This document shows, piece by piece, positions 1 to 5,668 of a stretch of 5,668 bases of DNA. The stretch is from contig SKPT01000245.1 of assembly GCA_007119405.1 (NCBI GenBank), forward strand, positions 1-5,668, in the 5' to 3' direction. The notes under the pieces were generated by a model, which saw nothing but the letters and a program-made list of their open reading frames with translations, did not search any database and had not been told where the DNA came from. The first letter of the stretch is position 1. Each line of letters starts with the position of its first letter. A program made the translations under genes and the position numbers. Source of the DNA: Phycisphaeraceae bacterium. GTDB lineage: Bacteria > Planctomycetota > Phycisphaerae > Phycisphaerales > Phycisphaeraceae.

Positions 1-2
1 GG

Positions 3-404
3 GCGACGGACGCGGAAGGCATCGTGTTCCTGGCCAACGAGCGTTGCGAGCAGGAGAACCTGATCGAGCAGCTCAAGAACGGCTGCAAGGCGATGCGGAT
101 GCCGGTGGACAACCTGCTGAGCAACTGGGCGTACATGGTGATGGGGGCGCTGGCATGGACGCTCAAGGCGTGGTTCGCGCTGTCGCTGCCGGTGGCGCGT
201 GGACGCTGGGCCGCGCGTCATCGCGAGGAGAAGCATGAGCTGCTGCGGATGGAGTTCAAGGGCTTCGTCGAAGCGATGATGCGCCTGCCATGCCAGGTGT
301 TGCGATCGGGGCGGAAGCTGGTGTATCGGCTGCTGTCGTGGAACCGTTGGCAATCGGCGCTGCTGCGTTCGGCCGAGGCGTGGCGTGAGCCGATGCGCTG
401 TTGA
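3..404 (+). CDS. IS1380-type DDE transposase, C-terminal part (5' end outside window)
   Basis: The reading frame is open from the first bases of the window, so the gene begins upstream; 133 residues and the stop are visible. A start at the GTG at 24 is unlikely because the preceding codons read on as the same protein. Residues 14-25 fit the R-x3-E-x6-K pattern of IS4/IS1380-type transposases (R14, E18, K25), with E18 the likely catalytic glutamate of the DDE triad. The following stretch (LKNG, then RMPVDNLLSNWAYMVM, LAWTLKAWFAL, LRMEFKGF, PCQVLRSGRKLVYRLLSWN) matches what I recall of IS1380 C-termini. The enzyme would cut and join the ends of its own insertion sequence. The C-terminus looks intact. 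No IS end is certain: possible right ends finishing in AGG lie at about 432, 483 and 500, but the left end is needed to decide. The gene converges with the minus-strand gene ending at 609. Confidence 0.85.
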   Translation, partial: ATDAEGIVFLANERCEQENLIEQLKNGCKAMRMPVDNLLSNWAYMVMGALAWTLKAWFALSLPVARGRWAARHREEKHELLRMEFKGFVEAMMRLPCQVLRSGRKLVYRLLSWNRWQSALLRSAEAWREPMRC

Positions 405-420
405 ACGGCGGCAGGTTGAA

Positions 421-442
421 GTCGGGGTAAGGATGCCCCGAT
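421..442 (+). repeat. Short hairpin after the transposase stop
   Basis: TCGGGG at 422-427 pairs with CCCCGA at 436-441 around an 8-nt loop, with a possible extra G-U pair outside. It lies 17 nt after the transposase stop codon and has no T-tract, so it is at best a weak terminator or a structure inside the IS 3' end. The rest of the 405-608 gap holds no gene that I can support. Confidence 0.3.
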
Positions 443-608
443 CCGCGAGATTCGGCTGGACACGTGGCGGGAGCCAAGCGAGGCGTCAGATGAAGCAAGG
501 ACAAGATGGTTCACGCCTCGACCCACCCGGCGTCGTCGGCGATCCCGTGGCCGGCGCCACCGTCGGTCGAACGCCGCGCGGAGGCCGAGCGATACGCTTG
601 TTTTGGGG

Positions 609-1184
609 CTAGAGGACGTCGCGGCCGGTCTGGCGGGCGATGCGCCGGCCGCACTCCGGGCATCGCGGCCCCGGCGAGCCGCGCAGGTCGTAGCCGCACG
701 TCGCGCACGCTCCGCGCTGGGGGACCTGGAGCCAGTGCTGGTGGTAGCCCAGCTTCAGCAGCCCGTAGCCGGCGAGGAAGGAGATGCCCACGGTGCCGAC
801 GATCATCGCCAGCGCGGCCGCGAGGTGGCCGACGGTCATCACCTCGCCGAGATGAAACGTCGCGAACGCGGCGACCAGCGACACGATGCCCGCCAGGGCC
901 GCGAGGTTCCAATAGCGGGGGCGGTGTCGGACCAGCGGCAGCGGCACGAGAAGCTGGGCGAGCATGAAGCCGATGCTGTTGATCGCGTTTGTCGTCGCCG
1001 CCAGGAACATCAAGGCGATGGCGCCGAGGTCGTCGATGCCCAGCCATCGCGCCGGGGCGCGCACGCCAAGCAGCGCCGCGGCCACGAGGTAGATGAGCAC
1101 GGGCACGAGGGGTGCGACCCAGAAGCAGACCACGGCCACGGGGCGGCACGGCAGGGGGCGGGCGTCGTCGTGGGCCAACGGCAT
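609..1184 (-). CDS. Four-helix membrane protein with C-terminal zinc ribbon
   Basis: The product is 191 residues if started at the ATG at 1184. A TTG at 1220 would add 12 residues, but a -10-like box (TACAAT) lies inside that extension, so I chose the ATG. Hydrophobic segments at about 15-40, 52-83, 94-111 and 119-146 predict four membrane helices. A zinc ribbon follows: C160-x2-C163-GYDLRG, then C175-PE-C178-GR. The two CxxC pairs should bind one zinc ion on a cytoplasmic or membrane-proximal tail. I recognise the ribbon type from planctomycete membrane proteins of unknown role, but not the gene itself. The upstream gene (1240-1782, same strand) ends 55 nt before this start, and the -10 box in the gap argues for separate transcription. 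It is very GC-rich (a sampled line is 80% GC), like the native flanks. Function unknown. Confidence 0.8.
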   Translation of the reverse strand: MPLAHDDARPLPCRPVAVVCFWVAPLVPVLIYLVAAALLGVRAPARWLGIDDLGAIALMFLAATTNAINSIGFMLAQLLVPLPLVRHRPRYWNLAALAGIVSLVAAFATFHLGEVMTVGHLAAALAMIVGTVGISFLAGYGLLKLGYHQHWLQVPQRGACATCGYDLRGSPGPRCPECGRRIARQTGRDVL

Positions 1185-1190
1185 GGCGGG

Positions 1191-1220
1191 ATTGTAGAGG
1201 CCGGGGCGCAGGCGGCGCAA
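1191..1220 (-). promoter_or_regulatory. Predicted leaderless promoter of the 609-1184 gene
   Basis: On the minus strand, CTCTACAAT ends at 1191, six bases (CCCGCC) before the ATG at 1184, so transcription would start at or next to the A of the ATG. TTGCGC at 1215-1220 gives a plausible -35 with an 18-bp spacer. A perfect TTGACA at 1238-1243 overlaps the upstream gene's stop codon but is 41 bp from the -10, too far to pair with it. No Shine-Dalgarno sequence fits between the box and the ATG. Confidence 0.6.
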
Positions 1221-1239
1221 GCGTCCATCCGGGTCGCTG

Positions 1240-1782
1240 TCAAATGAGCGCCGGTAGGGAGTAGATCCACAGGATGAGTATGCCGATGATCCAGGAGGCC
1301 GCCACGAAGAACACCTGCGATTCGATGGGCATTTGGAGCATATCGCCCATGCGGCGCCACCAGATGACGAGCATGGTCGCGGCGATGCCTGTCATGAGGA
1401 CAGTGAGGCAGCCGGCCACGGGATCGCGATACTCCCGAAGGCGATCAGGAAGCTGGGCCAGCAGCCAGACCGCCAGCGGCGCGAGCGCGGCCAGGAAAAG
1501 CGGCAGGGCGCTGAGCCAGACGGGCCAGGCATCGAGCCTCAGGCGCGTGCGGCGAAGGTGGCGATAGAGCGACAGAAGCGGCGAGCCGAGGTCAACGACA
1601 AGCTCGAGCCGCTGCCCGCACTCGGGGCAGCTCGTGCCCGTCAAGTCGCGCAGGTTGTAGCTGCAATTGGGGCAGGGCACGTCGCGATGGCGCAGATACG
1701 CCGGGAGAAGCTCGTCCATGGCCTGCGGGGCCGGCGACGCGGCGGGCACGTCATCGCATGGGTCGGTGTCCGGGGCGGTCAT
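1240..1782 (-). CDS. Membrane protein with N-terminal zinc ribbon
   Basis: The product is 180 residues from the ATG at 1782, preceded by AGGGGG about 9 nt upstream. The frame stays open to 1980, but that extension is Arg/Ser/Pro-rich and looks like non-coding translation. M22 (ATG at 1719) is an alternative start just before the conserved part. A zinc ribbon lies near the N-terminus: C37-PN-C40-SYNLRDLTG, then C52-PE-C55-GQ. Three hydrophobic segments follow at about 86-110, 121-142 and 155-178, with basic residues between the ribbon and the first helix (RHLRRTRLR, 74-82). The ribbon is thus at the opposite end from its two neighbours of the same type, and the G of the usual CGYDLRG is S here. 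The protein probably sits in the cytoplasmic membrane with the ribbon inside the cell. I do not recognise a specific family, and the function is unknown. Confidence 0.78.
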   Translation of the reverse strand: MTAPDTDPCDDVPAASPAPQAMDELLPAYLRHRDVPCPNCSYNLRDLTGTSCPECGQRLELVVDLGSPLLSLYRHLRRTRLRLDAWPVWLSALPLFLAALAPLAVWLLAQLPDRLREYRDPVAGCLTVLMTGIAATMLVIWWRRMGDMLQMPIESQVFFVAASWIIGILILWIYSLPALI

Positions 1783-1837
1783 GACGGGGTACCCCCTGGC
1801 TGATGGTGCTGCGGGGCGCGGCGTGATGGCGAACGGT

Positions 1838-1862
1838 GAACGTCGAGTGCATGATGACGTTC
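1838..1862. repeat. 7-bp inverted repeat upstream of the 1240-1782 gene
   Basis: GAACGTC at 1838-1844 is repeated in inverted form as GACGTTC at 1856-1862, separated by 11 nt. It sits 56-80 nt upstream of the minus-strand start at 1782, where an operator could lie. A second small hairpin (CGCCAT 1901-1906 / ATGGCG 1912-1917) lies farther out. I see no convincing -10 box or gene in 1783-2021. Confidence 0.3.
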
Positions 1863-2021
1863 GAGTGCGCGGCGAACGGCCGGCGAGGCTGACGCAGCAT
1901 CGCCATGTAGAATGGCGGCGAATGCACGCGGACGCAACCGGCGGTCCGCACAGAGCACGGTTCGGGATGCTGTGTGGCACGCGGGGCCCGGCACGCGGCG
2001 ACCGGCATTGCAGGGGCAGGG

Positions 2022-2264
2022 TTACCAGATCATGGCCAGCAGCAATATCGCCAATCCCTGGATGACAAACACGATCCCGAGAAACAGGAATATCCGCGGC
2101 GCGGTCGCTTCGTCGTAGATGTGATACGCCAGTTCCCGGAAAACGCTCTGCTCAAAGATCTTTCGGCCAAGCCGACAGAATGCCACGCCACCGGGTCGCC
2201 TTCCGGCAATCAACAATAGGCCTGCGATGACGTTGCCCCACCCGATCAGGTGCAGCAGGTTCAT
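2022..2264 (-). CDS. Small two-helix membrane protein, unknown function
   Basis: The product is 80 residues from the ATG at 2264, chosen because AGGAGC lies about 10 nt upstream and the protein becomes coherent from there (MNLLHLIGWGNVIAGLLLIAG). The frame is open to an ATG at 2330, but those 22 extra residues are Arg/Ser-rich and overlap a promoter-like box. There is a first hydrophobic helix at about 3-20, then a basic/aromatic middle (GRKIFEQSVFRELAYHIYDEA, about 34-54), then a second helix at about 56-79 that runs to the end. The C-terminus ends two residues after the helix (MIW), so it is likely buried or periplasmic. There are no cysteine pairs, so it is not another zinc-ribbon protein. 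Sampled GC is about 55%, well below the flanks. I do not recognise it. It is divergent from the truncated comM copy and upstream of the 1240-1782 gene on the same strand. Confidence 0.65.
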   Translation of the reverse strand: MNLLHLIGWGNVIAGLLLIAGRRPGGVAFCRLGRKIFEQSVFRELAYHIYDEATAPRIFLFLGIVFVIQGLAILLLAMIW

Positions 2265-2312
2265 GGCTGCCGCGCTCCTGGACTGGCGGATTCGTAGAAC
2301 CGATCGGACCCT

Positions 2313-2346
2313 AGTGTAGCGGCGATCCATACCCGACCGCTATACT
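2313..2346. promoter_or_regulatory. Mirror-symmetric divergent promoter pair
   Basis: AGTGTAGCGG (2313-2322) and CCGCTATACT (2337-2346) are inverted copies matching at 9 of 10 positions, 14 nt apart. Read outward, they give CGCTACACT on the minus strand, towards the small membrane protein, and CGCTATACT on the plus strand, towards the truncated comM copy. Both fit the -10 form used elsewhere in the window. The -35 region of each promoter overlaps the other's -10 area, so the two would compete for RNA polymerase. No good TTGACA-like -35 is visible for either. Confidence 0.5.
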
Positions 2347-2440
2347 CCCCCCCATGCTCGCCCAGGCCCACAGCGTCGTCCTCCAGAACATCGACCCGCT
2401 TGCCTGCAAAGTCGAAGTCGACGTTGCTGAGGAGGGGTTG
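2337..2440 (+). repeat. Direct repeat, copy 1 (duplicated comM promoter and 5' end)
   Basis: This stretch matches 3110-3212. The 10-bp CCGCTATACT is identical, the following C-run is one base longer here, and the first 29 codons differ at 9 of 87 bases. Beyond about 2440 the match drops to roughly half of positions and is lost by about 2461. Confidence 0.9.
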
Positions 2441-2467
2441 CTCACAATGACCGTCGCGAGGCAATAA
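2354..2467 (+). pseudogene. Truncated duplicate of the comM N-terminus (37-codon ORF)
   Basis: From the ATG at 2354 the frame encodes 37 residues ending at TAA 2465-2467. The first 29 residues match the ComM N-terminus at 3126 with four changes (V5A, F8V, G12N, E19K), and the last eight (LTMTVARQ) only faintly recall the real PKTTIVGL. It holds just the first strands of the ChlI/Lon-like fold and no ATPase domain, so it cannot work as ComM. The copy keeps the comM -10 box seven bases before its ATG, so it may still be transcribed. Its stop lies 45 nt before the GTG of the next gene, which it could serve as a leader ORF. Of the nine base differences in the matched codons, five change amino acids, so selection on the peptide is not evident. 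Confidence 0.85.
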
Positions 2468-2500
2468 ACTCCGGTCCGGCGGCCGCCGTGTTCGTCAATA

Positions 2501-2507
2501 AGGGAGG
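2501..2507 (+). promoter_or_regulatory. Strong Shine-Dalgarno site deciding the GTG start at 2513
   Basis: AGGGAGG, continuing into TGA, is close to the ideal complement of the 16S rRNA tail. It lies 5 nt before the GTG at 2513. An earlier GTG at 2507 overlaps the site itself and so is not the start. Confidence 0.75.
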
Positions 2508-2512
2508 TGAGC

Positions 2513-3097
2513 GTGCAGGATTCTGCCGGTAAACAACACGTTGTGCGTCGCGCGGGCAGTGTCCTCCTGCTCGCCGCGTGGCTTGCGGGCGCGATTGTCA
2601 TGCTGCTGCCGGCTTACCACGGCGAGTTCATTGCACCGGGCTCGGCGACGACCTTACACGGTCTTCAAATTGCTGTCATCGGCTTCGTGTTCGGCTTTAC
2701 GCAGCTCGAGTTGTTGCTGATGGCAACGCTTCCCATCACGCTCTTCCTGCTAACGCCGCTGATATTGCTGCGTTATCTGCGGCGCGAGTATGTGCTGCCG
2801 GCGATTTGGGGAAGTCTACTCGCGATCAGCGCCGTGTCACCTGTGATAGCGGCCTTGGCACCTTTGCATGGCGTGAACCAGCGGCTTTTTGGCTTCTATC
2901 TGCTGCCCCTGCCGCTATTGATCGCCGGCGCGGCCCTCTACACGCTGGGTTACGCCGGGCTCCTGGCATCGCGCCAGGATCGACGTGCCACTCGACAGTT
3001 GTGCATTCACTGCGGTTATGACCTCCGGGGGACGCCAACCGGTGTCTGCCCCGAGTGTGGGCAGGCGAACGATGTGCGCGGCGATGAGCTCAATTGA
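2513..3097 (+). CDS. Four-helix membrane protein with C-terminal zinc ribbon
   Basis: The product is 194 residues from the GTG at 2513, placed by the Shine-Dalgarno site just upstream. Hydrophobic segments at about 14-35, 51-87 (probably two helices), 95-117 and 126-152 predict four to five membrane helices. A short basic linker (RQDRRATRQ) leads to the ribbon C164-IH-C167-GYDLRG, then C179-PE-C182-GQ, and an acidic tail. The layout resembles the 609-1184 protein, though helix sequences differ. Two things set it apart: sampled GC is about 58% against about 73% in comM, and it has a classic ribosome-binding site beside leaderless-type neighbours. It lies between the two copies of the comM 5' end, which suggests it arrived with that rearrangement. 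The stop TGA (3095-3097) overlaps the TTGACG that may serve as comM's -35, and comM starts 28 nt later. Function unknown. Confidence 0.82.
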   Translation: MQDSAGKQHVVRRAGSVLLLAAWLAGAIVMLLPAYHGEFIAPGSATTLHGLQIAVIGFVFGFTQLELLLMATLPITLFLLTPLILLRYLRREYVLPAIWGSLLAISAVSPVIAALAPLHGVNQRLFGFYLLPLPLLIAGAALYTLGYAGLLASRQDRRATRQLCIHCGYDLRGTPTGVCPECGQANDVRGDELN

Positions 3098-3125
3098 CGC
3101 CTTCCCCCTCCGCTATACTCCCCCC
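3094..3125 (+). promoter_or_regulatory. Predicted leaderless promoter of comM
   Basis: CGCTATACT ends at 3119, six C bases before the ATG at 3126, so the transcript would begin at or beside the start codon. TTGACG at 3094-3099 overlaps the stop of the preceding gene, but the spacer to the -10 is only 14 bp, so it is a weak -35 candidate. No ribosome-binding site is present between the box and the ATG. Confidence 0.6.
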
Positions 3126-3212
3126 ATGCTCGCCCAGGTCCACAGCTTCGTCCTCCAGGGCATCGACCCGCTTGCCTGCGAAGTCGAGGTCGACGTTGCC
3201 GAGGAGGGCCTG
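3110..3212 (+). repeat. Direct repeat, copy 2 (promoter and first 29 codons of comM)
   Basis: This is the functional partner of the repeat at 2337-2440: same -10 box, C-run one base shorter, 78 of 87 coding bases identical. Together the copies bracket the 2513-3097 gene, offset by about 773 bp. Confidence 0.9.
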
Positions 3213-4640
3213 CCCAAGACGACGATCGTCGGGCTGCCCGATGCGGCCGTCAAGGAGTCCATCGAGCGCGTCCGCTCCGCGATGGTCAACTCCGGGTTCC
3301 CCTTTCCGCTGGCCCGCCTGCTCGTCAACCTCGCCCCGGCCGACATCCGCAAGGAAGGCCCGGCCTTTGACCTGCCCATCGCCCTGGGCCTGCTCATCGC
3401 CGAGCGGGTCATCCGCAGCGAGCGGCATCGCGAGTTTCTCTTTGCCGGCGAGCTGGCGCTGGACGGCCGACTGCGCCCCATCCGCGGGGCGATCAATCTC
3501 GCGCTCTTGGCGCGTGAGCACAAGATGGCGGGGCTCATCGTGCCCGAGGACAACGCCGAGGAGGCCGCGGGCGTCGGCGGCGTGAAGGTCTACCCGGTCC
3601 AGACGCTGGCGCAGGTCGTGGGCTTTCTCAACGAGGTGGACGACATCGCGCCGCTCGCCGATCGCGGCGACACGGCCTTCGGCTTCGACGAGCGGGCGGA
3701 GGTCGACTTCGCCGACATCCGCGGGCAGGAGGCGGTCAAGCGCGCGGCGATGCTCGCGGCCGCGGGGGCGCACAACCTGCTCATGCTCGGGCCCGCGGGC
3801 ACGGGCAAGACGATGATCGCCAAGGCCATGCCCGGCATCCTCCCGCCGCTGACGCGCGAGGAGGCGCTGGAGATCACGCGCATCTACTCGGCCGTCGGGC
3901 AGGTGCCGGCCGGGCAGTCGCTCATCCGCCATCGCCCGGTGCGCACGCCACACCACACCGCCAGCAGCGCGGCCGTGATCGGCGGGGGCACGATTCCCAA
4001 GCCCGGCGAGGTGAGCTTGGCCCATCGCGGCGTGCTGTTTCTTGACGAAGTGCCCGAGTTTCCGCGCATGGTGCTCGAGACGCTGCGCCAGCCGCTGGAA
4101 GACGGCTACGTCACCATCTCGCGGGCGCACAGCTCCATCCGCTTCCCCGCCCGCTTCCTCATGCTGGGGGCGATGAACCCCACGCCCAAGGGCGACAAGC
4201 CCACCGACGAGTTCTCCCATCGCCAGATGCAGCGCTACCTCGCCCGGCTGTCCGGCCCATTCATCGACCGCGTGGACCTGCACGTCGAGGTCCCGCCTGT
4301 GCCCTATCAGCAGCTCAGCGGCGAGCGGCGCGGCACGGGCTCGGCGGAGCTGCGCGAGCGCGTCGTCGCGGCGCGCCAGCGGGCGATCAAGCGCAACGGC
4401 AGTGCGCTCAAACCCAACAGCGCGCTCACCGGCCGCGAGCTCGATCGCGTCGCGGTGCTCGACGACACGGGCCGGGAGCTGCTGCGCCAGGCGATGAGCG
4501 AGCTGAACCTGAGCGCCCGGGCGTACGACAAGATCCGCCGCGTTGCCCGCACCATCGCGGACGTCGACGACGCCGACGTGATCCGCCCCGAGCATGTCGC
4601 GGAGGCGGTGCAGTATCGGCTGCTGGATCGTGAACTGTAG
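3126..4640 (+). CDS. comM: ComM/YifB-family Mg-chelatase-like AAA+ ATPase
   Basis: The product is 504 residues, the usual ComM length. In naturally transformable bacteria ComM is a hexameric helicase that aids branch migration during integration of incoming DNA; that role is carried over from the family, and no competence genes are visible here. The N-terminal ChlI/Lon-like domain (about 1-165) opens MLAQVHSFVLQGID and contains IVGLPDAAVKESIERVR (34-50). The AAA+ core has Walker A GPAGTGKT (222-229), RTPHHTAS (273-280), Walker B VLFLDE (303-308), sensor-1 N351 and GPFIDRVDLH (377-386). The C-terminal domain has SARAYDKIRRVARTIAD (463-479). The CPCG cysteine cluster usual after MN in the family is absent (NPTPKGD, 351-357), and no cysteines follow. 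The ATG at 3126 is chosen by homology and by the -10 box just before it; an in-frame ATG at 2985 lies inside the previous gene. It converges with tRNA-Leu. Confidence 0.96.
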   Translation: MLAQVHSFVLQGIDPLACEVEVDVAEEGLPKTTIVGLPDAAVKESIERVRSAMVNSGFPFPLARLLVNLAPADIRKEGPAFDLPIALGLLIAERVIRSERHREFLFAGELALDGRLRPIRGAINLALLAREHKMAGLIVPEDNAEEAAGVGGVKVYPVQTLAQVVGFLNEVDDIAPLADRGDTAFGFDERAEVDFADIRGQEAVKRAAMLAAAGAHNLLMLGPAGTGKTMIAKAMPGILPPLTREEALEITRIYSAVGQVPAGQSLIRHRPVRTPHHTASSAAVIGGGTIPKPGEVSLAHRGVLFLDEVPEFPRMVLETLRQPLEDGYVTISRAHSSIRFPARFLMLGAMNPTPKGDKPTDEFSHRQMQRYLARLSGPFIDRVDLHVEVPPVPYQQLSGERRGTGSAELRERVVAARQRAIKRNGSALKPNSALTGRELDRVAVLDDTGRELLRQAMSELNLSARAYDKIRRVARTIADVDDADVIRPEHVAEAVQYRLLDREL

Positions 4641-4664
4641 GCAGCCGCTGGTGGCTTCGCGAGG

Positions 4665-4684
4665 CGCCCCGTATGCCCGGGGCG
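4665..4684. terminator. GC-rich hairpin between convergent comM and tRNA-Leu
   Basis: CGCCCCG (4665-4671) pairs perfectly with CGGGGCG (4678-4684) around a 6-nt loop, 24 nt after the comM stop and 20 nt beyond the tRNA 3' end. There is no T-tract on either side, so simple intrinsic termination is doubtful, but the place suits a shared two-way terminator. Confidence 0.4.
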
Positions 4685-4704
4685 GTGGTGCGGGAAAGGG
4701 TGAA

Positions 4705-4790
4705 TGCGGCCGAGAGGAGTCGAACCTCCACGGGGTTTTATCCCCACCAGGCCCTCAACCTGGCGCGTCTGCCAATTCCGCCACGGCCGC
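4705..4790 (-). tRNA. trnL: tRNA-Leu, anticodon GAG
   Basis: The 86-nt minus-strand sequence folds as a class II tRNA: 7-bp acceptor stem GCGGCCG/CGGCCGC with discriminator A, D arm GCG/CGC around a loop with GG, anticodon stem CCAGG/CCTGG with loop TTGAGGG, long variable arm GGGG-ATAAAA-CCCC, and T arm GGAGG-TTCGACT-CCTCT with one G-U pair. The anticodon GAG (4754-4756) reads CTC and CTT leucine codons. The 3' CCA is not encoded (the minus strand continues TTCA), so it must be added by tRNA nucleotidyltransferase. Confidence 0.97.
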
Positions 4791-4820
4791 GGCGTGCCCG
4801 GGCGTCGCCGGGGACTCCAC

Positions 4821-4848
4821 AGTATAAGCGCTGCCCGGCCGTTGTCGA
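4821..4848 (-). promoter_or_regulatory. tRNA-Leu promoter
   Basis: On the minus strand, TATACT (4821-4826) follows TCGACA (4843-4848) with a 16-bp spacer, close to a sigma-70 promoter. Initiation about 7 nt downstream (near 4814) would leave a 5' leader of about 24 nt for RNase P to remove. It is the best two-box promoter in the window. Confidence 0.65.
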
Positions 4849-4862
4849 GGCGAGCGGTGGCA

Positions 4863-5059
4863 GGTTCTCGCAGAGGCCGCCGAGAGCGCAGAGGGCGCGG
4901 GTTGGCTATACCTCGCGAGCCCCGGGTGCCGTGGTCTTGGCGAGTCCGCTCGCCAAGGCCACGATCCTGCGTGTCCATCGCTGGCCTTGGCATTCGCCAG
5001 GACCACACCCCCAGCGCAGTGCCACACCACCCATCATCTCCGCGCCCTCCGCGAGAACC
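4863..5059. repeat. MITE-like segment bounded by 23-bp inverted repeats
   Basis: The left arm 4863-4885 and the reverse complement of the right arm 5037-5059 both begin GGTTCTCGC and match at 20 of 23 positions, differing at A/G, C/G and C/G. Inside the left arm region, CGCAGAGG occurs at 4869-4876 and 4887-4894, 18 bp apart. The interior is non-coding and contains the hairpin at 4931-4962. It occupies nearly all the space between the tRNA promoter and the carbonic-anhydrase promoter. It could be a small non-autonomous mobile element or two insertions of a dispersed GC-rich repeat in opposite orientation. No target-site duplication is clear. Confidence 0.5.
4931..4962. repeat. 14-bp-stem hairpin
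   Basis: GTGGTCTTGGCGAG (4931-4944) pairs with CTCGCCAAGGCCAC (4949-4962) across a TCCG loop. All 14 pairs form, one as a G-U in the plus-strand RNA. A related inverted copy, TCGCCAGGACCAC (4994-5006), matches the complement of the left arm at 12 of 13 positions, so three versions of the unit lie within 76 bp. There is no T-tract and no gene directly upstream on either strand to terminate, so it looks like a REP-type palindrome. Confidence 0.6.
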
Positions 5060-5064
5060 CCCCC

Positions 5065-5079
5065 TCTACAATCACCGCC
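5065..5079 (+). promoter_or_regulatory. Predicted leaderless promoter of the carbonic-anhydrase gene
   Basis: CTCTACAAT ends at 5072, seven bases (CACCGCC) before the ATG at 5080. The box is identical to that of the 609-1184 gene. No -35 or ribosome-binding site is evident: the bases 17 bp upstream are GC-rich, and no purine-rich stretch precedes the ATG. Confidence 0.55.
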
Positions 5080-5598
5080 ATGAGCATCCAACACATCGGC
5101 AGCGTCTACATCGCCGACACCGCCCGCGTCGTGGGCGAGGTCGAGCTGGGTGAGGGCGTCAACCTCTGGTACGGGGCCGTGATCCGCGGCGACGTGGCGC
5201 CGGTGAGCATCGGCACGGGCACCAACATCCAGGACGCGGCCGTCGTCCACTGCGACTCCGACGTGCCCAACGTCATCGAGGCGAACGTCAGCGTCGGCCA
5301 CGGCGCGATCGTCCATGGCAAGCGCGTCGGCGAAGGCACGCTCATCGGGATGGGCGCGACCGTGCTTGGGCAGACGGTCATCGGCCGCGGGTGCCTGGTC
5401 GCCGCCGGGGCGCTCGTGCCGCCGGGGCTGGAGGTGCCCGACGGCCACGTCGTCATGGGCGTGCCTGGCCGGGTCGTGCGACCCATCAACGATAAGGAGC
5501 GCGCCTACCTCGCCTGGCTCGCCCCGCACTACGTCGAGCTGGCGCGGCTTCATGCAACGCAGCCGCAGGACAGGCGCGTGCGGGCGATGGAGCGGTAG
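5080..5598 (+). CDS. Gamma-carbonic-anhydrase-family protein (YrdA/PaaY-like)
   Basis: The product is 172 residues, a normal length for the short cytoplasmic members. It should form a trimer of left-handed parallel beta-helices with a metal ion (zinc or iron) at each subunit interface. Hexapeptide repeats run through most of the chain (GEVELG, WYGAVIRGD, VSIGTGTNIQD, TLIGMGATVLG, CLVAAGALV). The metal ligands of the family are in place: H57 after NIQDAAVV, and H74 and H79 in GHGAIVH. The family arginine (R36 of RGD) and Q51/D52 are also present. The C-terminal GVPGRVVRPI and the helix that follows (KERAYLAWLAPHYVELA) fit the YrdA/PaaY group. Some members are active carbonic anhydrases and others have lost activity, so CO2 hydration is possible but not proven. 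The start at 5080 is favoured over an ATG at 4987, because upstream residues lie in the non-coding repeat and a -10 box directly precedes it. It has no operon partner in the window. Confidence 0.93.
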   Translation: MSIQHIGSVYIADTARVVGEVELGEGVNLWYGAVIRGDVAPVSIGTGTNIQDAAVVHCDSDVPNVIEANVSVGHGAIVHGKRVGEGTLIGMGATVLGQTVIGRGCLVAAGALVPPGLEVPDGHVVMGVPGRVVRPINDKERAYLAWLAPHYVELARLHATQPQDRRVRAMER

Positions 5599-5668
5599 GC
5601 TTGGTTGGAAACGGGTGTCACGCAACGCCGTGAACTTCACGCGTGGCGGCGCCGATGTAGGGTGGGTA

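Follow-up and report, generated by a model that had tools for sequence, protein, structure and literature searches.

Described insertion systems and the comM locus

The closest described systems resemble the locus reported here either in their target or in their form. Tn6022/AbaR-type elements and Tsy share with it the use of comM as a target; according to PMC10293859, Tn6022 and Tsy are directed to the Walker B region of this gene. Integrative elements that target the 5' end of a gene are represented by the dusA integrative mobilisable elements such as IMEVchUSA3 and by SXT in prfC, and an insertion in dusA supplies a new N-terminus over 35 residues, as stated in PMC8409611. Another likeness is offered by integron cassette arrays, in which cassettes that mostly hold one gene, mostly point in one direction and mostly have no assigned function are separated by a repeated site. 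Integron gene cassette arrays without an integrase exist. In this study, we analysed a stretch of 5,668 nucleotides from a Phycisphaeraceae bacterium (contig SKPT01000245.1, positions 1 to 5,668 of the forward strand; hereafter the window), in which a gene, here called the cargo gene, has a copy of the comM 5' end on either side, and this arrangement was compared with the comM loci of other Phycisphaerae.

Whereas Tn6022/AbaR-type elements and Tsy break comM at Walker B, here the 5' end is used and comM stays whole, the right edges of the repeats lying at codons 22-36 with no insertion at Walker B (in one genome, G313, comM is split elsewhere). The anatomy seen in six genomes would, judging by sequence, correspond to an insertion in the 5' end of a gene that supplies a promoter and an N-terminus. 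The dusA/yicC set, however, spans 22.8-37.1 kb with integration modules, while the cargo here measures about 0.4-2.6 kb and is without a recombinase; moreover, the two 5' ends are far more alike within a genome here than at dusA, for which the figure is 61% over 35 residues. Neither an integrase of its own nor a defined att core was found, the cargo proteins scanned being without a recombinase and the edges being variable. As for integrons, tandem single-gene cassettes around a repeated site are present in two regions of G313 (C8 and C14), but the repeat of integrons is attC and the one described here consists of the comM promoter and the first 36 codons. A GTTRRRY/RYYYAAC pair was not noticed in the repeats by eye, no attC model having been run. 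Among eight genomes searched for the integron integrase TIGR02249, several of them fragmented, three related ones (G146, G208 and G057) had a match over the cut-off, and G313, G383, G172, G309 and G448 had none over it. No reports of comM 5' insertions or of Phycisphaerae cassettes were found in a non-exhaustive search of the open-access literature; in one of the listings, comM was also taken as part of words like community. The pattern is a recurrent one that we did not find described, namely a gene-preserving insertion at a 5' end that takes an integron-like array form in G313.

The repeated comM 5' end in the window and in other genomes

An earlier note, made from the window's sequence, had stated that the comM promoter and first codons are present twice, and this was confirmed: counted from the start codon of comM, the best ungapped repeat covers -6 to +83, the two copies agree at 82 of these 89 positions, and the start codons are 772 nt apart. 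A repeat search paired 2348-2456 with 3120-3228 (109 nt, 86%; repeat family D11). The block CCGCTATACTCCCCCC, sought in the window with up to three mismatches allowed, occurred twice, both times exactly, and two matches were obtained in none of 200 shuffles; the promoter blocks are spaced by 773 nt instead of 772 because a C-run differs by one base. All parts of the arrangement lie on the forward strand. The upstream copy of the promoter region (2327-2353), a member of D11 with a -10-like TATACT at 2341-2346 and the exact 16-nt block at 2337-2352, is followed by the truncated comM copy (2354-2467), which, as the note had also said and as the open reading frame (ORF) listing and the repeat comparison indicate, ends as a 37-codon leader ORF with its stop. 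Its identity to the window's own comM is 91% over codons 1-22 (2354-2419) and 71% over codons 23-36 (2420-2461), fading toward codon 36. The cargo gene (2513-3097; 194 amino acids) starts with GTG and is preceded by the strong Shine-Dalgarno sequence AGGGAGGTGA at 2501-2510, recognised by eye; the note's remarks on this site and on a lower GC content were also borne out, the cargo stretch having 61.9% and comM 70.7%. Hydrophobic stretches were seen by eye in the cargo protein, which ends in a four-cysteine zinc ribbon and gave weak Pfam matches only. The second promoter-region copy (3100-3125; TATACT at 3114-3119), identified by the repeat and the exact-block match, stands in front of the intact comM (3126-4640; 504 amino acids), which has the ChlI, Mg_chelatase and Mg_chelatase_C domains.

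The comparison set consisted of 134 comM-bearing loci, i.e., a first set of 80, a further 53 whole-genome loci and the window, with some contigs present twice (for example L001/L094). When the first 90 nt of comM were sought up to 6 kb upstream, three loci stood out: L113 (85/90), the window (80/90) and L133 (76/90), followed by a runner-up at 48/90. L113 and L133 belong to genomes G172 and G383; compared with the comM protein of the window, theirs show 59% and 69% identity. A profile covering 37 residues at the N-terminus of comM (A1) was then matched in 329 of 400 genomes of one order, 22 of 26 genomes of a second order and 334 of 387 genomes of the class, with more than one match in 11, 4 and 15 genomes, respectively; these samples overlap. 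The majority of the relatives accordingly show a single comM 5' end, which fits the insertion of an element.

The order of a truncated comM 5' copy, cargo and an intact comM 5' end was found in five further Phycisphaerae genomes (G172, G383, G168, G144 and G313) with different cargo, which supports the note's proposal of a small integrated element that provided comM with a new 5' end while the former one stayed in place. In G172 the repeat spans -38 to +107 (136/145 identical) and the cargo is a protein of 108 amino acids with no assigned function; in G383 it spans -13 to +65 (78/78) and the cargo is a basic protein of 127 amino acids. The upstream copies of both genomes likewise end as a 37-codon ORF. 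The repeat of G168 (-74 to +90, 156/164) encloses an 818-amino-acid PQQ_2/TPR protein with a lipobox recognised by eye, and that of G144 (-16 to +66, 77/82) encloses an AAA ATPase (NsnB and PDC-M55A models) together with a weak PIN_3 match.

Other second matches were not counted as cassettes: G345, G633, G257 and G677 have second long comM-like frames, the copy of G501 lies at a contig end, G569 and G591 are weak, and the second frame of G065 has 227 amino acids. The second frames of G218 (482 amino acids) and G681 (516 amino acids) fell outside the DNA-level comparison and G025 outside the inspection, while lone or decayed copies without cassette evidence (G691 L233, G448, G309, G146 and G383 C484) were left out of the count, as were the cargo-free copies of G142, G190 and G595 and those that fuse the comM 5' end to interior parts of the gene (G101, G676, G691 L228 and P0090). 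Joints of the latter kind, resembling mini-comM pseudogenes, were seen in G101, G676 and G691 (L192, L226 and L228). In G448 C54 (L213, 7048-7182, reverse strand), a lone ectopic copy lies between unrelated genes; it is identical to the genome's own comM at 133 of 135 positions and ends in the 22-nt palindrome TCCCCGACGCCGGCGTCGGGGA. Additionally, the comM of G313 is interrupted at the Walker A region (L174, 15927-16607) and that of a metagenomic virus record at codon 221 (L186, 1-666), a second hotspot of this class, in the comM interior. Carriage by phages or plasmids found no support: the one IMG/VR match is this virus record, and the 37-residue query gave no plasmid match.

Arrays, shared cargo and the make-up of the copies

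G313 has ten matches to the profile, and its nine extra copies form two groups, only one of which adjoins comM. On C8, three truncated copies precede comM; on C14, there are six truncated copies and a tail-only remnant, with no other comM start over the 40 kb read. Of the eight intervals, seven measure about 560-1290 nt and mostly hold one small gene each, while the eighth (C8 67683-76638) extends over about 9 kb and holds several genes. The C8 cassette genes are a truncated lipoprotein-like ORF and two proteins of 141 and 159 amino acids with no assigned function. Those of C14 encode a 181-amino-acid protein of no assigned function, a zinc-ribbon-like protein of 111-137 amino acids, an LD-carboxypeptidase (Peptidase_S66) of 347 amino acids, a protein of 125-146 amino acids with no assigned function, a zinc-ribbon protein of 186 amino acids and a reversed lipoprotein-like ORF. 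Eight of the nine clear cassette genes point in the same direction as the copies.

The 186-amino-acid protein of C14 is 62% identical to the cargo protein of the window, so that the 2513-3097 gene, whose company elsewhere the note had left to be checked, does occur with comM 5' fragments in a second genome. In a search of 5.8 billion proteins, in which scoring was applied to the 7,997 candidates with the most words in common, most of the cargo gene was covered by four of these candidates alone (P0001-P0004), i.e., the window's own protein, one of Phycisphaerales bacterium AB-hyl4, P0003 and P0004. Both instances of the cargo gene with a known context adjoin comM 5' copies, P0003 and P0004 being without context. 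Among 397 class genomes, G313 alone gave a full-length match, and the next best was partial (E 7.8e-12). A two-sequence zinc-ribbon profile matched in 120 of the 397, and the listed matches, except that of G313, mainly concerned the C-terminal part.

Over codons 1-22, the upstream copies of the window (91%), G172 (98%) and G383 (98%) head the comparison table with their own comM, and because their left part is closest to it, a comM paralogue was rejected as the source of the copy. The G313 copies are 82-97% identical to the G313 comM over these codons, some of them being nearer each other, and copy C8c reaches 94% identity with the window's comM. Over codons 23-36, the identity to the own comM is 71% in the window, 83% in G172, 60% in G383 and 69-83% in the G313 copies, and past codon 36 the similarity to comM stops. 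In G383, codons 23-36 are closer to G313 copy C14c (67%) than to its own comM (60%), and its tail aligns with three of the seven G313 tails compared (scores of 23-24 against a maximum of 16 in 300 shuffled pairs). The G383 copy is a mosaic, with a left part like its own comM and a tail common to three G313 copies. After codon 36, orthologue pairs (window/L122 and L091/L092) agree at 31 and 33 of 42 positions and the copies at 6-14 of 42. Leader-ORF alignments, used as queries in two protein database searches, gave 66 short comM-5' proteins, of which 17 diverge at codons 30-37 and 19 at codons 38-100 (tails of at least five residues) and 30 have tails of fewer than five residues; these breakpoints are supporting evidence only, because nine of the hits from the first search were part of the second query and P0090 represents a fusion within comM. 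On inspection by eye, some of the tails look like the G313 tail (SKRPTS in P0053, SNCPTSAG in P0078).

The idea that the comM 5' end is under a constraint of its own at the DNA level was considered and rejected: the synonymous identity of codons 1-22 ranks 61st of 483 windows in 32 orthologues. Where these orthologues share a residue, the codon is identical in 46% of cases, and codons 1-22 do not exceed this level. Between the copies and their own comM, 13 pairs showed 44 synonymous and 15 other differences in codons 2-22, where 24% would be expected to be synonymous (binomial p 2e-16). These pairs are not independent of each other: two ectopic copies are among them, six G313 copies are set against a single comM, and changes that arose in comM itself are also counted. 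In G313 C8a, C8b, C8c and C14b, all 18 of 18 differences are synonymous. This bias could mean either that the copies serve at times as a functional comM start or that a leader peptide is kept.

Origin of the cassettes and their significance

On balance, we consider it probable, if far from certain, that in Phycisphaerae small cargo cassettes have inserted recurrently at the comM 5' end (the promoter and about the first 22-36 codons), in a way that preserves the gene. Such a cassette would usually hold a single gene and lack a recombinase. Once it is in place, the former comM 5' end would remain upstream as a promoter and a short leader ORF before the cargo gene, probably cotranscribed with it, while the second comM 5' end would drive comM downstream, and repeated events would give rise to arrays. 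As the most likely step, we infer an exchange between the comM 5' segment carried by a cassette and the matching end of the resident gene, either by homologous recombination or through a recombinase acting in trans. The window may hold one such cassette, whose upstream copy looks old or ageing. A more specific proposal, which we put forward tentatively, is an integron-like Phycisphaerae cassette system without an integron integrase, in which the promoter-bearing comM codons 1-36 and a short tail would form the attachment site, each insertion would express the cargo from the comM promoter and rebuild comM, and arrays would arise at comM and elsewhere.

A number of observations weigh against an insertion at a defined comM site. 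The repeat edges differ between genomes (left -74 to -6, right +65 to +107), and the GC content of the G168 cargo exceeds that of comM. In codons 23-36 of the window, the G313 cassettes reach at most 69% against 71% for its own comM, and the tails of the window and G172 gave no alignment with the tail common to G383 and G313. High identity in codons 1-22 is also seen between orthologues of different genomes (window and L122, 60/66; L091 and L092, 65/66), the former value equalling the match of the window's own two copies, and in codons 2-22 the window copy has one synonymous and five other differences. The note had suggested looking for an empty site in relatives, and none with conserved flanks was found by synteny, as the flanks are not shared. 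No recombinase was present in any of the cargo proteins scanned, and no tyrosine-recombinase match was obtained in G313 C8:46-98 kb or C14:1-40 kb; apart from L209 and L210, which the scan for other types did not cover, the one recombinase seen nearby was a Resolvase, located about 19 kb beyond the start of comM in G313. Cargo-free copies also exist, as an immediate tandem copy of the comM start in G595 (L157; 55/57 nt at an offset of 55), a weaker one 106 nt upstream in G190 (L217; 35/57) and a partial one about 150 nt upstream in G142 (L189). Finally, two gene 3' ends in G313 C6 flank a single gene each: that of a LacI-type gene (97278/98175, to 98256; L258; 82 nt, 89%, spacing 897) and that of a PIN-domain-like gene (55938/60390, to 60502; L256 and L257; 114 nt, 89%, spacing 4452).

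These 3'-end repeats are possible analogues of the comM arrangement, and gene-end duplication around cargo may therefore be broader than comM. A rather unlikely alternative is that foreign DNA enters at gene ends in general by template switching or one-sided homology, with long duplications, that the events which duplicate a gene's end persist because they keep the gene whole, and that comM is one place among several, and the one examined here. The variable repeat edges and near-identical halves would suit it, and so would the palindrome that ends the G448 ectopic copy (133/135), as after template switching. However, a scan of 892 kb of G313 (about one fifth of the genome; repeats of at least 60 nt, 150-6000 nt apart, comM copies excluded) gave nine direct repeats, of which C7 had four (three REP-like by eye, the fourth within a transporter-like ORF), C6 three and C2 two, and none of the nine was a gene 5' end flanking cargo; moreover, the G313 groups, the shared cargo and the shared tail point to a common element.

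It is improbable that the copies are chiefly selected expression leaders, the comM promoter and start having been recruited repeatedly to express cargo with mobility being incidental. The leader ORF kept open, the stop at codon 38 in four of 12 copies (the window, G172, G383 and C14b) and the synonymous bias agree with such a role, but one G313 cassette gene is reversed, the differences in the window copy are mostly not synonymous, and the origin of the copies is left unexplained. Even less probable is the tandem duplication that the note had offered as one of its readings, in which the comM 5' region was simply doubled and later decayed. The direct repeat does adjoin comM, the window copy appears to be ageing and the cargo-free copies of G595, G190 and G142, which are either tandem duplications or sites that lost their cargo, indicate that simple tandem duplication occurs here; yet duplication leaves the different cargo of six genomes, the shared cassette gene, the shared non-comM tail and the G313 groups unexplained. 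Remnants of the known comM-targeting transposons (Tn6022 with TnsF, or Tsy) are hardly credible, since, although comM is a known target and the G313 comM is split at Walker A, these elements act at the Walker B region and not at codons 22-37 (PMC10293859), and they encode transposition proteins, none of which was found in the cargo.

Around the arrangement, the window holds several other features. Two proteins on the reverse strand (609-1184 and 1240-1785) have a C-terminal zinc ribbon similar to that of the cargo protein (2513-3097, forward strand). An ORF of 102 amino acids (2022-2330, reverse strand; GC 57.9%) is possibly foreign too; it had no Pfam match and none in the fetched comM loci. 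A piece of a DDE transposase lies at 24-404 on the forward strand (PF13701, under its cut-off, E 0.00046), and a tRNA-Leu(GAG) gene (4705-4790, reverse strand), the sole match of an Rfam search, lies just 3' of comM.

If insertion at the comM 5' end operates as proposed, a conserved DNA-processing gene would double as a safe docking and expression site for rare cargo, with the host gene left unharmed. The cargo collected in this way would include a defence-like ATPase with a PIN-like partner, as in G144. It would also constitute a route of gene capture outside integrons and integrase islands, and the movement of integrase-less cassettes would become testable.
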